Shown: piece by piece, positions 18,707 to 27,025 of the stretch
Position numbering within the stretch: position 1 is the stretch's first letter
Layout: each line of letters begins with the position of its first letter
IMG/VR virus record: IMGVR_UViG_3300025083_000178
Coordinates: 1-27,473 of that record
Direction: 5' to 3' (one strand)
Source of the DNA: a virus
Length of the DNA: 27,473 bases
Position numbers and translations under genes: made by a program
The notes under the pieces: generated by a model
Databases searched by the model: none
The model's input: the letters and a program-made list of their open reading frames with translations, nothing else
Told to the model about the DNA's origin: nothing

Positions 18707-18718
18707 TTCAATAGTATG
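18705..18718 (+). repeat. Single AATTCAATA unit at a start codon
   Basis: AATTCAATAG runs directly into the ATG of the capsid protease gene (AATTCAATAGTATG). It is the same core as arrays A-C, alone, and shows the motif at a start codon as at 10451-10466. Confidence 0.5.
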
Positions 18719-20191
18719 AAAGTAATAGAATTATTTATAGACGAAGAGGGAGAATTGTCAGGCATTGATGCTATATCAATAGTCGAGCAACCAGCAATAG
18801 AAGAAAATTTTGTTGCTTTAAAAGATGAACTTAAAGTAGAGTTAGCTGATGTTGATAAGGATAAGCGTATTCTTATGGGCGCTGCTCTAATACCTAATAA
18901 AAAGATATACAGAAAAAGTAGAGAAGATGAGTATTATATATACTTCTCTGAAGATACTGTGCGTAGAGCATCTGAACTATTCTTAATGAAGGGGAATCAG
19001 AATAAATCTACTTTAGAGCATCAGGCGCAACTATCAGGTATGTCTGTTGTAGAATCTTGGATTATAGAGGATGATACACATGATAAATCTCGTAAGTATG
19101 GATTGAATATGCCCGTTGGTACTTGGATGGTCTCTATGAAGGTCAACAATGAAGAGGTTTGGCAAAATTACGTTAAGACAGGTAAGGTGAAGGGGTTCTC
19201 AATAGAGGGCTACTTCACCGACAAGATTGCTAGGTCAATGATTCAGAAAGAGAATGATGCTGCTGAAGTATTGTTGGAGATTGCTGATAGCATTGAAGCT
19301 GGAAAGCTAAATCTAAAAACATACGGAGATTACGGAAGTGGTGTTAGAAATAACGCCAAGAGAGGAATTGAGCTAAACAAAAAGGTAAATAACCGTTGCG
19401 CAACCTCTGTGGGAAAAATAAGAGCGCAGCAGTTGTCAAGGGGTGAAAAATTGAGTGTGTCCACGATTAAGAGGATGTATTCATATCTTTCAAGGGCAGC
19501 CGAATACTATGACCCAAGTGATTCAAAGGCTTGTGGTACTATTTCATATTTATTGTGGGGAGGTAAGGCTGGACTTGCTTGGAGTAGAGGTAAACTAAAA
19601 GAATTAGGTGAAATTGAGTTGGCATCTAAAAGGATTGATAACAGACTTGCTTACGACACAAAAGAACAGGCTTTAAAGGTAGCTAAAGATATTGGTTGTG
19701 ATGGCTACCACGTTCACAAATTTGACGGTAAAGATTGGTATATGCCCTGTAAAGAACACAAATTAGCAGAATACGATGACAAAGGAAGAATTAAACGAAG
19801 CAAGAAAGCACCAGATTCCGATACTCCAAATCCTAATCCAAAACGAGGAAGCAAACGCAATCCAAAGGGTGCTGCTGGGAAGTCAAGGGGAGTTACTGTA
19901 CCCGACAGAGTGTTAAAGTCTCTTCAGAAGAAAGCAGATGACTTTAATGAGAAATACAAAGCTAAAAAAGGATATGGAACTACTGTTGGGCAACTGAAGT
20001 CTGTATATCAGCGTGGTGTTGGCGCATTTCAAACATCTCATAGTCCTGCTGTAAAGTCAGCCGAGCAATGGGCGCAGGCTAGAGTAAACGCCTATATATA
20101 CCTTTTAAAGAACGGTAGACCGCAAAATGCTAAATACACTACCGATTACGATTTACTACCAAAGAAACACCCTAAATCAAGTAAGAAATGA
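18716..20191 (+). CDS. XkdF-type capsid maturation protease fused to two phage domains
   Basis: The 491 aa protein has three parts. Residues 1-175 look like the XkdF-like serine protease domain, with MGAALIPNKKIYRK, the His block STLEHQAQLSGMSVVESWII (H102) and the Ser block KGFSIEGYF (S162). Residues about 205-300 form a recurring phage domain (DYGSGVRNNAKRGIELNKKV, STIKRMYSYLSRAAEYYD, then SYLLWGGKAGLAWSRGKL). Residues about 395-491 resemble a DUF5824-type domain (GRPQNAKYTTDYDLLPKKHP). The protease probably trims scaffold and capsid proteins. It lies just before the scaffold and capsid genes. The fusion is longer than usual for this enzyme. Confidence 0.8.
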   Translation: MKVIELFIDEEGELSGIDAISIVEQPAIEENFVALKDELKVELADVDKDKRILMGAALIPNKKIYRKSREDEYYIYFSEDTVRRASELFLMKGNQNKSTLEHQAQLSGMSVVESWIIEDDTHDKSRKYGLNMPVGTWMVSMKVNNEEVWQNYVKTGKVKGFSIEGYFTDKIARSMIQKENDAAEVLLEIADSIEAGKLNLKTYGDYGSGVRNNAKRGIELNKKVNNRCATSVGKIRAQQLSRGEKLSVSTIKRMYSYLSRAAEYYDPSDSKACGTISYLLWGGKAGLAWSRGKLKELGEIELASKRIDNRLAYDTKEQALKVAKDIGCDGYHVHKFDGKDWYMPCKEHKLAEYDDKGRIKRSKKAPDSDTPNPNPKRGSKRNPKGAAGKSRGVTVPDRVLKSLQKKADDFNEKYKAKKGYGTTVGQLKSVYQRGVGAFQTSHSPAVKSAEQWAQARVNAYIYLLKNGRPQNAKYTTDYDLLPKKHPKSSKK

Positions 20192-20962: not shown

Positions 20963-21943
20963 ATGAGTAATCAAAAAGTAAATCTATACGCTGGTAATGG
21001 TTCTGTTGATACCATCACCTCTACTTACGCTGGAGAGTTTGCAGGAAAATACATTTCTGCTGCCCTCTTGACAGGTAAAACATTAGCTGAAGGTGCAATC
21101 ACCATCAAACCTAATGTAAAATATAAAGAAGTCGTAAAGAAAGTTGCTTCAACTAACTTTATCGCTGATGCTTCTTGTGATTTTTCTGCTACTGCTGATG
21201 CGCTTACACTTACAGAGCGTATTCTTCAGCCAGAAGAGTTCCAAGTTAACCTAGAGCTTTGTAAAAAAGACTTTAGAGCAGACTGGGAAGCTGTACAAAT
21301 GGGATATTCTGCATTTGACAAACTACCTGCATCTTTCTCTGACTTTATTCTAGGACACGTTTCTGCTAAAGTTGCTGAAAAGACAGAGCAAAACATCTGG
21401 GGTGGTGTAAACGCTAACGCTGGTGAATTTGACGGTATTACAGTTCTTGCTGCTGCTGATGGAGACGTAAACGATGCTGCTAATGGCTCTGAAACATCTT
21501 TCAGTTCTTCTAACATTGCAACACTTCTTGGAAACGTAGTTGATGCTGTTCCTTCTGCTGTTTATGGTAAAGAAGATTTGACTATCTACCTTCCAACTGT
21601 TGCATTGCAATCTTATGTTCGTTCATTAGGTGGTTTTGCCACAGGCGGACAAGGTGCTGCTGGTGTTAACGCACAAGGAAGTCAATGGTACAATCAAGGG
21701 AATGCACTTTCTTTTGAAGGTATTAAAATCCAACATGCACCAGGAATGCCATCTGACCACATCGTTGCTGGTGAGGCTTCTAACATCTTCTTCGGTACAG
21801 GTCTATTAAGCGACCACAACGAAGTAAAAGTAATCGACATGGCTGACATTGATGGAAGCCAGAATGTACGTATCATCATGCGATATACAGCAGGTGTACA
21901 ATACGGTATCGGTTCTGACTTGACGTTACTGACGTTAGCATAA
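20963..21943 (+). CDS. Major capsid protein (HK97-like fold, probable)
   Basis: The 326 aa product follows scaffold and is followed by a terminator. It starts NQKVNLYAGNGSVDTITSTY, has TERILQPEEFQVNLELCKKD and then FILGHVSAKVAEKTEQNIWG, the spine-helix-like part of these capsids, and ends IIMRYTAGVQYGIGSDLTLL. Ala, Gly and Ser are frequent, codon use is more regular, and the sequence is more GC-rich than its neighbours, in keeping with a highly expressed gene. The length is normal for a Bacteroidota phage capsid protein. The assignment is from position, size and remembered family pattern. Confidence 0.8.
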   Translation: MSNQKVNLYAGNGSVDTITSTYAGEFAGKYISAALLTGKTLAEGAITIKPNVKYKEVVKKVASTNFIADASCDFSATADALTLTERILQPEEFQVNLELCKKDFRADWEAVQMGYSAFDKLPASFSDFILGHVSAKVAEKTEQNIWGGVNANAGEFDGITVLAAADGDVNDAANGSETSFSSSNIATLLGNVVDAVPSAVYGKEDLTIYLPTVALQSYVRSLGGFATGGQGAAGVNAQGSQWYNQGNALSFEGIKIQHAPGMPSDHIVAGEASNIFFGTGLLSDHNEVKVIDMADIDGSQNVRIIMRYTAGVQYGIGSDLTLLTLA

Positions 21944-22001: not shown

Positions 22002-22556
22002 ATGGCTTGTGATTTAACTGGCGGAAGATTAAGACCTTGTAAGGATGCTGTCGGTGGTATTAAGAAACTACACTTTGTAGATTTCGGTGATTTAGGAACT
22101 TTAACCTATGGTTCTAGTGATGAGATTACTGATATGACTGGTACTTTCGATTATCATACTTATGATGTTAAAGGTAATTCTTCGCTTGAAACAAACATTA
22201 CATCTTCTATGGAGAATGGAACAACATTCTTTGAGCAGGTGTTAAGCGTTACATTGTTTAAGCTAACTAAAGAGGACAATAAAGAATTGAAGTTAATGGC
22301 GTATGGTAGACCACACGTTGTTGTACAAACATTTGATGACAAGTTCTTGTTGGTTGGCGCTGACAATGGTTCTGACGTAACTGGCGGTACTGCTGTAACT
22401 GGTACTGCAATGGGAGACCTAAATGGCTACACACTAACTTTAACTGCTAATGAAATCCGTATGCCATCTTTCGTAGATGGAGGTACTGATGCAGACCCAT
22501 TTGCAGGTATGACAAGTGCTACTGCTACTGAATCTACTCAAAGAGACCCTTCATAA
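22002..22556 (+). CDS. Major tail tube protein
   Basis: The 184 aa product has the pattern of the Bacteroidota siphophage tail tube protein. It begins ACDLTGGRLRPCKDAVGGIK and continues with FDYHTYDVKGNSSLETNITS, SSMENGTTFFEQVLSVTLFK, KELKLMAYGRPHVVVQTFDD and GGTAVTGTAMGDLNGYTLTL. The mix of strands and conserved Gly residues fits the tube fold. It lies between a terminator on each side, as a one-gene unit with high expression likely. Its place is distant from the other tail genes and next to the capsid gene. Confidence 0.8.
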   Translation: MACDLTGGRLRPCKDAVGGIKKLHFVDFGDLGTLTYGSSDEITDMTGTFDYHTYDVKGNSSLETNITSSMENGTTFFEQVLSVTLFKLTKEDNKELKLMAYGRPHVVVQTFDDKFLLVGADNGSDVTGGTAVTGTAMGDLNGYTLTLTANEIRMPSFVDGGTDADPFAGMTSATATESTQRDPS

Positions 22557-22647: not shown

Positions 22648-23703
22648 ATGCACATATTACAAGCGATAGACTCGGTACAGAATATAAAGATTAAGCCAAG
22701 AAAAACTGTTTTATCTGGTAGCTGTATTGTTGAGATGACTAACAAATCAGAAAGAAGGACATTTGAATATACTGTCTCTCATAGTTACGACTCATCAACA
22801 AACATAACCACGTTAAGCTTTGCATTTCCTAATCTTATAGCCGAATCATATTACAGTATTGTAGTTAAAGATGATGTTGGAGATATTTACAGAGGAATGG
22901 CTTATGTAACAGACCAAACTGATTTTGATAAATATGAGGTTGGTAAAGGAGATTACATAGTTGAACAAACATTTGACAACGACTTTATTGTAATAGGAGA
23001 TGAGAGTGGTGGAGTAACGCCATCACCAAGCGATGTTACATTGTGTTACGATACTTCGGCTATGGATGCGCTAACATCAGCATTTAAGATATGTGATTTA
23101 TACTGCGTTACAATAGACGAGGTTAATTACGATGATTGGTATTTACCATCAAAAGAAGAAGCTGAAGAGTTATATAGACATATAGGGCGTATCAATCAAG
23201 TTGCTACACAATACGGATATGACCCATATTATGTTCCAGAAGTGGTAGGAACACCATCTGGTCCTAGTCAAACAAATTTATATTATTGGACATCAACAGA
23301 AAGAGTTGAATCACCAAGCAGAGCTTATGTTTATCAAAGATGGTTTTATAATTCACCAATATCAAATTTAACAAAGGACATTCCAGAGAATTGCTACTTA
23401 TCTGAAGTAAATTGTGGTGGTGCGTATTACAACACTAAAAAGACAAGGGTTAGACCTGTAAGATTTGAAGCTGGAGTAAGTGGAAGTGTTGGAGATGGTT
23501 TAACTACAAAGGGTTATGGAGGTATTGTTGCTGGCGCATATACTCTTAATGGAGTAGAGGGTGCATTGATAATTTCCCCAACAGAACCTAAATCTGAAGA
23601 TGCTTACACACAATGGAGTGATTTAGGACAAACAACAACGGGAGTTACAAGCGAAACTGACGGACAAGCAAATACAATAGCAGCATTAGCATTAGGAGCA
23701 TAA
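22648..23703 (+). CDS. DUF1566-like (lectin-fold) virion adhesin with permuted modules
   Basis: The 351 aa protein has an N-terminal beta-rich domain (1-122, probable virion attachment). A DUF1566/Lcl-like segment follows, with DDWYLPSKEEAEELY (162-176), YYWTSTE (212-218) and TRVRPVRF (266-273). Then comes GGIVAGAYTLNGVEGALIIS (291-310), a Trp block (TQWSDLG) and GQANTIAALA (339-348). In the usual family order the GG...GQANT module comes before the WYLPSK...VRPVR module; here it comes after. The domain is a C-type-lectin-like fold and probably binds a host surface structure. It has its own promoter and lies between tail tube and portal. The domain call is good; the role is inferred. Confidence 0.75.
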   Translation: MHILQAIDSVQNIKIKPRKTVLSGSCIVEMTNKSERRTFEYTVSHSYDSSTNITTLSFAFPNLIAESYYSIVVKDDVGDIYRGMAYVTDQTDFDKYEVGKGDYIVEQTFDNDFIVIGDESGGVTPSPSDVTLCYDTSAMDALTSAFKICDLYCVTIDEVNYDDWYLPSKEEAEELYRHIGRINQVATQYGYDPYYVPEVVGTPSGPSQTNLYYWTSTERVESPSRAYVYQRWFYNSPISNLTKDIPENCYLSEVNCGGAYYNTKKTRVRPVRFEAGVSGSVGDGLTTKGYGGIVAGAYTLNGVEGALIISPTEPKSEDAYTQWSDLGQTTTGVTSETDGQANTIAALALGA

Positions 23704-23706
23704 GAA

Positions 23707-24960
23707 ATGGCAAAAAAAGCAAGACATTACGCAAAGAAAAGACCTATTATGAATAATAAAGAAGAAGGTAAAATACATATTGTTCAACTCGGTTCTTATT
23801 CAAGACCAGAGATTAAAGAATACTATAACGATGATTTCGTTGCTTATGGTGAGGACAATGACTATTTCACCTACCTGATAGACAGGTACAACGGAAGTCC
23901 AACAAACAATGCTGCAATCAATGGCATTTCTGAAATGATATATGGAAGAGGTCTTGATGCAACAGACAGTAAAGAGAATGAGTCTGGATATAAGGAGATG
24001 AAAGAACTCCTTAAAAAAGATGTAATTAAGCGAATTACCCACGATTATAAAATGATGGGTCAAGCTGCGTTGCAAGTTATATACACTAAAGACCGCTCTA
24101 AAATCGCACAGGTAGAGCATATACCAGTAGAGACGTTAAGAGCCGAGAAATGTAACTCTAAAGGCGAAATAGAGGCATATTACTACCATTCTGATTGGAG
24201 TACAGCAAGTACAGGAGATAAGCTAACTAGAATACCTGCATTTGGATTCTCTAATGCTGCTATTGAGATACTTTACATAAAGCCATATCGTGCTGGGTAT
24301 AAATACTATTCGCCAGTAGACTATCAGGGAGGATTACAGTATGCAGAGTTAGAAGAAGAGATTGCAAACTATCACATCAATAATATTCAGAATGGATTAA
24401 GTCCATCTATGCTTATCAACTTTAACAATGGTACGCCAGATGCAGAACAGAGAGATGCCATAGAGAATAGCATTATCAATAAATTTAGTGGTAGTTCTAA
24501 CGCAGGTAGATTTATTTTGGCGTTTAACGATAGTAAGGAGTTAGCAGCTACTATTGAGCCAGTACAGTTATCAGATGCACACCAGCAGTATCAGTTCTTA
24601 TCTGACGAAAGCATGCGTAAAGTAATGGTATCACACCGTATCGTATCACCTATGCTTGTCGGCATTAAGGACACATCTGGTTTAGGTAATAATGCGGAGG
24701 AATTACAGACTGCATCTGTACTTATGGATAACACCGTAATCAGACCAATGCAAGTTACTATTCTTGATGAACTTGAGAAGATACTTGAGTACAACGGAAT
24801 TGAATTAGACATCTATTTTAAGACCCTACAACCGCTTGAATTTACTGACTTGACTAATGCTATCAGCGAAGCCGAGATAGAGAAGGAAACAGGCGTTAAA
24901 AAGGATATAGAGGAAGAAGTCAAAGAAAAGGTAGAAGAACAAATTGAAGATGTAGAATAA
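23707..24960 (+). CDS. Portal protein
   Basis: The 417 aa product has portal features: YGEDNDYFTYLIDRYNGSPT near the start, NAAINGISEMIYGRGLD, RITHDYKMMGQAALQVIYTK (the wing/stem), HIPVETLRAEKCNSKGEIEA, and the C-terminal SHRIVSPMLVGIKDTSGLGN, which matches the portal 'R.P...Lg....s.' turn. An acidic tail closes it. Portal forms the vertex ring through which DNA is packaged. It is 17 kb from terL in this window, while in most phages portal follows terL directly. It overlaps the next gene by one base (TAATG). The alternative start at 23749 would remove 14 basic residues. Confidence 0.85.
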   Translation: MAKKARHYAKKRPIMNNKEEGKIHIVQLGSYSRPEIKEYYNDDFVAYGEDNDYFTYLIDRYNGSPTNNAAINGISEMIYGRGLDATDSKENESGYKEMKELLKKDVIKRITHDYKMMGQAALQVIYTKDRSKIAQVEHIPVETLRAEKCNSKGEIEAYYYHSDWSTASTGDKLTRIPAFGFSNAAIEILYIKPYRAGYKYYSPVDYQGGLQYAELEEEIANYHINNIQNGLSPSMLINFNNGTPDAEQRDAIENSIINKFSGSSNAGRFILAFNDSKELAATIEPVQLSDAHQQYQFLSDESMRKVMVSHRIVSPMLVGIKDTSGLGNNAEELQTASVLMDNTVIRPMQVTILDELEKILEYNGIELDIYFKTLQPLEFTDLTNAISEAEIEKETGVKKDIEEEVKEKVEEQIEDVE

Positions 24961-25588: not shown

Positions 25589-25724
25589 TTGGGTTGGAGA
25601 ATATCCTTTTATAAATATTGTAGGTGAAGCAAATGATTATAGAAAAAGAGTATTAGACGATAGCGGTACTATTGAAGCACAAGAGAGTTTAGTAGACACC
25701 CTTCATAACACAGTAAAACAATGA
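25527..25724 (+). CDS. Small structural-region protein (65 aa), unknown
   Basis: The product starts ATGWGKIINAIGFGKVYKSS and continues WVGEYPFINIVGEANDYRKR. It follows the connector gene and overlaps the fibre gene by 4 nt (ATGA). The start is preceded by aagaaaga. No domain is recognised; it may be a small virion component. Confidence 0.6.
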   Translation: MATGWGKIINAIGFGKVYKSSWVGEYPFINIVGEANDYRKRVLDDSGTIEAQESLVDTLHNTVKQ

Positions 25725-27025
25725 GCATATACGATAAAGCAACTTTAGTACAGATACCAAGCGGTTACAAAGCAAGTGGTGCTAAACTCTATTCAGTCCT
25801 ACCTGCTAATGGAGATGGCGATTTTACAGTATCAGCAGATGCAGATGCTACAAGAGTAAACTCTGATGGGCTTATAGAAAGTACAGCAGCAAACCAAGCA
25901 AGGTTAAGCAGAAACTTTATAGACGGAGTAGTACAGCCTGACCCTTTCTTACTTTTAGAGCCTTCAAGGACTAATGTAATAACAAGGTCAGAAGAATTTA
26001 ATTTATGGGGAGACACAGGAGTTACGGTAACAGCTAATGATACAATAGCACCAACAGGCGCACAAACCGCAGACCTTTTAACTTCAAGTGCGAATAATTG
26101 GAGAAGAAGCTTTGTTTATGGGGTTTCAAATGGAACTGTTTATTCGTTTAGTTGCTTTGTAAAAAAACACACCACTACTGATAATATAAGATTTGAACTT
26201 TACAGGGGTGCAAATGCAAGTAATTTAGACTTTGAATTTAGCACAGAAACATTAAGTGCATCAGATGCAAATTTAACCAATTTAAAGGTTGAAAATTATC
26301 CTAATGATTGGTATAGGGTAAGTTGTAAATTTACTGCTAACGGAACGAGTGCAATAGTATATGCATATCCATCACAGGGATATGGAAGTTCGGGAAGTGC
26401 GTATTATTGGGGTGCGCAAGTCGAAGCAGGAAGCTATGCAACATCCTACATACCAACAAGTGGTTCATCAGTTACAAGGACAGCAGACACTTGTAAAAAA
26501 ATAAACTTTGCTGATATGCCTACTGATTACCCTTTTACTGCATTTTGGCAAGGAAGGATTGATGATTATGACAGTAGTGGGTTTACATCACAAGTACCAT
26601 TTTCTCTTGCTGCAACAGGCACATTTAACTGTTATTTTGGATTAAACTTTTATAGTACAAGTCAATTAACATTAAGAAGAAGAAATGATAGCGACAATAG
26701 TGTTTTTGTATCGTTTACAAGTGATAAAGACACTACATACAAGATAGCTATATGCTTTATATCTGCAACTGCTACTAAAATATATATAAACGGAACAGAG
26801 GTGCTTGATAGTACAAGTTTAACTTCTGTACCATACATAGGTGCAGATACACCTGACAGCGTACTTATCGGTCAATTAAGAGATAATACAGATACAGGAA
26901 AAAGAAATAGTTGCGACCAATTTATCTTATTTAACGAAGCACTATCAAACAGCGAACTAGAAACAATAACAAGCTATGACAGCTTTGGGCAAATGGCGAA
27001 AGCATTATTATATACAATAGAATAA
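25721..27025 (+). CDS. Fibre/adhesin protein with carbohydrate-binding and LamG-like domains
   Basis: The 434 aa protein has an N-terminal attachment-like part (1-76), then FLLLEPSRTNVITRSEEFNL (76-95). A CBM-like jelly-roll domain covers about 95-250, ending in AYYWGAQVEAGSYATSYIPT, a phrase typical of phage fibre and head-fibre proteins. A concanavalin/LamG-like domain covers about 265-430 (AICFISATATKIYINGTEVL, FILFNEALSNSELETI). It probably binds host polysaccharide. The next gene is a relative with the same LLLEPSRTN block. It overlaps the small gene upstream by 4 nt. Confidence 0.8.
   Translation: MSIYDKATLVQIPSGYKASGAKLYSVLPANGDGDFTVSADADATRVNSDGLIESTAANQARLSRNFIDGVVQPDPFLLLEPSRTNVITRSEEFNLWGDTGVTVTANDTIAPTGAQTADLLTSSANNWRRSFVYGVSNGTVYSFSCFVKKHTTTDNIRFELYRGANASNLDFEFSTETLSASDANLTNLKVENYPNDWYRVSCKFTANGTSAIVYAYPSQGYGSSGSAYYWGAQVEAGSYATSYIPTSGSSVTRTADTCKKINFADMPTDYPFTAFWQGRIDDYDSSGFTSQVPFSLAATGTFNCYFGLNFYSTSQLTLRRRNDSDNSVFVSFTSDKDTTYKIAICFISATATKIYINGTEVLDSTSLTSVPYIGADTPDSVLIGQLRDNTDTGKRNSCDQFILFNEALSNSELETITSYDSFGQMAKALLYTIE

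Follow-up and report, generated by a model that had tools for sequence, protein, structure and literature searches.

The C-type-lectin-like fold is in wide use among phages and bacteria as a binding scaffold that diversity-generating retroelements also target. A solved representative of the DUF1566 family is the C-terminal domain of Legionella Lcl (Lcl-CTD; PDB 8q4e; Pfam PF07603, Lcl_C, formerly DUF1566). In Lcl-CTD, strands S1-S4 precede the DUF1566 half inside one domain, and the domain is a trimer [PMC11162425]. Below, the segment corresponding to S1-S4 is referred to as the A half and that corresponding to H2-S9 as the B half; in the sequence of Lcl-CTD, A comes before B. Canonical DUF1566 domains of phages and bacteria (e.g., L063, L211, and L084), which are the nearest sequence relatives of both halves of the protein discussed here, are all A-B, and several are located at the C terminus of tail-fibre-like or collagen-like proteins, unlike the present domain, which sits on a small protein next to the portal gene.

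Circular permutation of a sugar-binding fold has precedents, in folds that differ from the present one. Concanavalin A is a circularly permuted carbohydrate-binding domain, with the permutation taking place after translation. Calcium-dependent CBM families are circularly permuted according to Montanier et al. 2010, as cited in PMC4444583. For DUF1566 and C-type-lectin-like domains, a literature search of limited breadth turned up no permuted example, and a natural circular permutant of this fold seems not to have been reported before; a segment-swapped member of the superfamily, collagen IV NC1, is known [PMC3779223].

The phage record and the gene upstream of the portal gene

The stretch of DNA analyzed (the window) is a viral record of 27,473 nucleotides (27.5 kb; IMGVR_UViG_3300025083_000178) and represents a fragment. 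Scanning its ORFs against Pfam, together with comparisons, identified a DnaB-type helicase, an exonuclease, and a large terminase. Other genes that are relevant here are:

18716-20191: maturation protease
20963-21943: probable major capsid protein
22002-22556: 184-aa protein
23707-24960: portal
25721-27025: fibre-like protein

The portal protein identifies Nonlabens phage P12024S/L as the closest isolated phage (42% identity), and P12024S carries homologues of the protease, the capsid protein, and the 184-aa protein in the gene order of the window. The window virus is a marine tailed phage related to P12024S, and these similarities in portal, gene content, and gene order make a marine flavobacterial host likely. 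The protease ORF carries an XkdF-like peptidase together with matches to DUF5824 and DUF3721, and approximately 140 of its residues are absent from P12024S gp01. The fibre protein is LamG/ConA-like and is followed by a second ORF, ~39-40% identical to it (L001:8458-8820); these fibre paralogues differ strongly among close relatives (L005, L008, and L009). With regard to a possible diversity-generating retroelement target, no reverse transcriptase was detected in the 17 ORFs of this fragment that were scanned against Pfam.

Directly before the portal gene lies a 351-aa ORF with an ATG start, the product of which ends with GQANTIAALALGA-stop. Its parts are as follows:

22648-23703, + strand: whole ORF, N-domain and probable permuted C-type-lectin-like domain; conserved in relatives
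22648-22995, + strand: N-terminal domain, residues 1-116; a stand-alone protein at the same locus in most relatives
22996-23034, + strand: Gly/Ser/Pro-rich linker, residues 117-129, from the sequence
23035-23469, + strand: B half, residues 130-274, the canonical second half (H2 to S9 of Lcl-CTD; Pfam Lcl_C 39-117), from profile and structure matches
23047-23076, + strand: putative head copy of the junction segment, residues 134-143, YDTSAMDALT, from a junction PSSM
23137-23148, + strand: WYLP motif, residues 164-167, from the sequence; invariant in the close family
23137-23634, + strand: block exchanged between phage backbones, residues 164-329, from codon-aligned DNA identity
23284-23301, + strand: YWTSTE motif, residues 213-218, from the sequence
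23449-23463, + strand: VRPVR motif, residues 268-272, the canonical domain end, from the sequence
23470-23511, + strand: linker between the old C terminus and the old N terminus, residues 275-288; the most variable part among close relatives
23512-23700, + strand: A half, residues 289-351, the canonical first half (S1-S4 of Lcl-CTD), now C-terminal, from profile matches
23668-23697, + strand: putative tail copy of the junction segment, residues 341-350, ANTIAALALG, from the junction PSSM

The two halves are found where an earlier note on this DNA had placed them in exchanged order: residues 140-273 contain DWYLPSKEE, YYWTSTE, and RVRPVR, and residues 291-348 contain GGIVAG, GALIISP, QWSDLG, and DGQANTIAAL. 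Within the B half, an insertion of ~20 residues (residues 245-263, window 23380-23436, PENCYLSEVNC..) is absent from canonical domains; its two cysteines are conserved in the close family, and L344 and L349 lack it.

The Pfam profile PF07603 gives 25.2 bits over profile positions 39-117 only, below the gathering score of 34.9, and matches five of eight members of this gene at an E-value of 0.01. The DW-x-LP, YW-S/T-S-S/T-E, and VR-x-V/I/F-R motifs are present in order, and the S1-S4 segment follows H2-S9 instead of preceding it. The domain has a topology that is new for an otherwise known family. As it scores below the Pfam cut-off and departs from the canonical order, the most fitting name for it, judged by sequence, is circularly permuted relative of DUF1566/Lcl_C. 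Its likeness to Lcl-CTD lies in a B half that matches H2-S9 and an A half that corresponds to S1-S4; it differs from Lcl-CTD and canonical members in the exchanged halves, the sub-cut-off Pfam score, and the ~20-residue insertion. Searching PDB sequences with a profile of the B-A family found no real relative, whereas canonical profiles find 8q4e.

Order of the halves and profile alignments

Half-profiles were built from 19 canonical domains and used to survey phage and bacterial domains gathered from viral and genome contigs. Among distinct ORFs, 170 were A-B, four A-B-A-B, one A-B-A-B-A-B, and 11 B-A; each of the 11 is this gene in a relative of the window phage. One extra ORF scored as B-A-B, with the upstream A undetected. 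Together with Lcl-CTD, these numbers confirm the earlier claim that A followed by B is the usual order. The note had also reasoned that many members with the swapped order would speak against a permutation. The outcome favors the note: the swapped order occurs in a single gene family of one phage lineage, against 170 other distinct ORFs with A-B. All relatives of this gene in which both halves are complete share the B-A order. Frameshift, sequencing, or assembly error is ruled out, as frame, ends, and order are the same in independent contigs. Because the swapped order is conserved in relatives, it is a real rearrangement, conserved across one phage lineage.

A synteny survey, consisting of two scans with neighboring genes, gave 150 distinct syntenic ORFs. 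The large majority (135) are at most 175 aa long and consist of the N-domain. The remaining 15 exceed this length because they include the lectin-like domain; of these, 13 are complete, every one of them B-A, and no A-B version was present at the locus among the 150. P12024S gp05 (125 aa), which is diverged, and marine phage proteins of ~110-139 aa are N-domain orthologues located before the portal gene, and they lack the lectin-like domain. The permuted domain is therefore an optional extension at the C terminus of a small phage protein, which had gone unremarked in the earlier note. In a phages collection, tblastn gave no match with the whole protein or with the diverged L349, and chance-level matches only with the domain alone.

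On the profile of the 19 canonical domains, residues 138-272 align with profile positions 63-176 and residues 291-346 with positions 6-64. The two pieces cover the profile without loss and are cut exactly at the internal junction. The earlier note had read the swapped order, the cut point, and the DUF1566 family correctly. In the profile search with exchanged halves that the note had proposed, the best single-alignment score rose from 47.4 bits for the native order to 67.2; controls with a shuffled A half (n = 200) had a mean of 49.8 and a maximum of 60.3 bits. Profile-profile comparison with a single canonical profile (80 domains) resulted in two alignments with scores of 105.9 and 70.9. A doubled canonical profile gave one continuous alignment over residues 134-350, with a score of 166.7 for the whole protein and 166.6 for the domain alone, and the swapped family scored 167.4 on the single profile. 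The profile-profile alignment is weak at the ~244-262 insertion and at the end of B. Two pieces on a single profile and one on a doubled profile is, at the level of sequence, the textbook signature of a circular permutation, and it supports that reading in the earlier note.

The whole-protein Pfam score below the curated cut-off (25.2 vs 34.9 bits) is what might suggest that A-like and B-like segments were joined by chance, or misread, with no permutation involved. However, both halves match canonical profiles independently (profile-profile P-values of 2E-17 and 2E-11; single-sequence E-values of 1.1e-16 and 2.6e-9) and are exactly complementary. Chance juxtaposition is refuted by the profile alignments, the ORF order survey, and the doubled-profile test, and we consider this explanation extremely improbable.

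Structure models and predicted closure of the fold

Two AlphaFold models were generated. In model 1 (full length, seven close relatives), the N-domain is predicted to be β-rich with a pLDDT of ~75, while the lectin-like domain has a pLDDT of ~30; this model is useful for the N-domain only. Model 2 covers residues 123-351 with an alignment of 59 rows, in which the A and B pieces of canonical relatives were entered as separate rows together with two natural B-to-A stretches of L089. It has a pTM of 0.67 and a mean pLDDT of 59.7, with the A strands predicted most confidently (pLDDT ~80-90). Model 2 is consistent with a single fold, which it supports but does not prove, because its alignment was picked from random subsets so that the pieces fell on their own half.

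A Foldseek search of the domain model against the PDB gave nothing below an E-value of 0.001. With VIA-align, the first-ranked structure is Lcl-CTD (8q4e), with a Z-score of 3.7 (low by the tool's own notes), an rmsd of 2.5 Å over 79 residues, and 25% identity. Residues 144-274 are paired with Lcl residues 316-401, i.e., the H2-S9 half only, the necessary result when an aligner that keeps to sequence order is applied to a permutant. Of the structural check that the note had proposed, the analysis thus covers the match of the B half to Lcl-CTD and the confidence of the A strands; A would pack on the B half of its own chain, forming one C-type-lectin-like fold.

The A half of one subunit might instead complete the B half of its neighbor, giving an obligate dimer or trimer by strand exchange. 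The trimeric state of Lcl-CTD and the short, variable new linker fit such an arrangement. However, nothing requires exchange, and since the old termini of C-type-lectin-like folds are close together, a linker of 14 residues should be long enough for a single chain to complete the fold. Strand exchange is therefore considered unlikely.

Origin, maintenance, and exchange of the domain

The viral protein L089 contains tandem canonical domains with linkers of ~8 residues, which makes an ancestral duplication step natural. L089:835-3393 is a single viral ORF of 853 aa with three to four tandem canonical DUF1566-like domains. Neighboring ORF pairs, each with a canonical DUF1566 domain, are also present (L059:2542-3843, L060:2647-3897, L088:2866-4105, L131, and L132) and resemble tandem gene duplicates. 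In 515-aa proteins such as L092:2671-4215 (similar in L094, L095, L099, L100, and L103), the DUF1566-like domain is followed by an extra GGVVFKI segment, which looks like the beginning of another copy.

We estimate a probability of about 0.8 that a DUF1566/Lcl-type domain was circularly permuted, most likely through tandem duplication, and forms a C-terminal add-on to the N-domain protein. In this scenario, a canonical A-B domain would have been duplicated in tandem to give A-B-A-B. The first A and the last B would then have been lost, with the cut falling within the helix between the two halves. VRPVR, formerly the C-terminal strand, would now lead through a linker of ~14 residues into GYGGIVAG, formerly the first strand, and the termini of the permuted domain would correspond to the old internal junction, each retaining a copy of the junction segment.

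A junction PSSM derived from 104 canonical junctions (x-N-T-x-A-M-x-A..), scored over a window of -1 to +10, agrees with this outcome. Of the 351 positions, the C-terminal tail (N342) scores best, followed by the beginning of the B half (D135). The same ranking is seen in L003, L006, L011, and L013; the head ranks third in L344 and first in L349, and in L014, L055, and L367 the PSSM did not detect the head copy. Approximately nine junction residues thus seem to have been retained at each end, which is what the loss of the outer A and B from a tandem A-B-A-B would leave behind, although the likeness may have arisen by convergence on a helix-capping sequence. No direct DNA repeats are left within ORF 22648-23703, which suggests that the duplication is old.

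Tandem A-B-A-B proteins (L089, L310, and L165), from which a simple deletion yields B-A, could also have left a truncated repeat: the B of one copy and the A of a second, unpacked, with B acting alone and A a vestige. The synteny survey added three diverged B-A members, L344, L349, and L367 (domain 44, 40, and 50% identical, respectively), in which A is better conserved than B (54-59% vs 39-48% identity). Among sequence pairs short of dS saturation, the A half has a dN/dS of ~0.1-0.35. By these measures, the A half is under purifying selection and maintained rather than a remnant. Moreover, the A half extends all the way to the junction, the two halves add up to a single domain in which nothing but the junction segment occurs twice, and the fold model is most confident in A. 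A truncated repeat is thus a quite improbable explanation, even slightly more so than strand exchange.

Turning to how the permuted domain is used, codon-aligned DNA identity indicates that its middle part has been exchanged. L014 is distant from the window (58% identity in the capsid protein and 30% in the N-domain). Compared with L003, it is 95-100% identical over residues 164-310, ~70% at 129-163, and 73% at 330-351. L055 and L006 follow the same pattern (81-94% over residues 164-329). Conversely, the window and L006 are 98% identical at residues 129-163 and 92% at 330-351, and 65-85% over 164-329 except for 51% in the linker. These patterns show that the 164-329 block moves between backbones while the ends stay. 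In the mosaic alleles L014:4412-5083 and L055:3001-3669, the middle of the domain is common to distant phages and both ends follow the backbone.

Exchange of alleles in this way is usual for phage specificity determinants, and it is chiefly this resemblance that argues, indirectly, for a role in binding. The protein would be an accessory adhesin displayed on the virion, with a ligand on the host surface or in the environment. Conservation of the N-domain and its location among structural genes suggest that it anchors the protein in the particle; the Gly/Ser/Pro linker would then display the permuted domain, which would bind its ligand through loops of B. In a canonical A-B domain, the 164-329 block would be split between both domain ends. 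It is conceivable, though doubtful, that the permutation is itself functional, making the exchangeable part contiguous, with the ends (129-163 and 330-351) providing homology for recombination.

If the fold closes as predicted, the C-type-lectin-like scaffold can accommodate new termini in the helix that links its two halves, and the gene shows a route to permutation, by a tandem duplication that left remnants at either end. Permuted domains of this kind are missed or scored too low by profile libraries such as Pfam. For the phages, the locus represents a small conserved protein adjoining the portal gene that gained an optional lectin-like module, and it is a clear case of such a module being exchanged between diverged phages.
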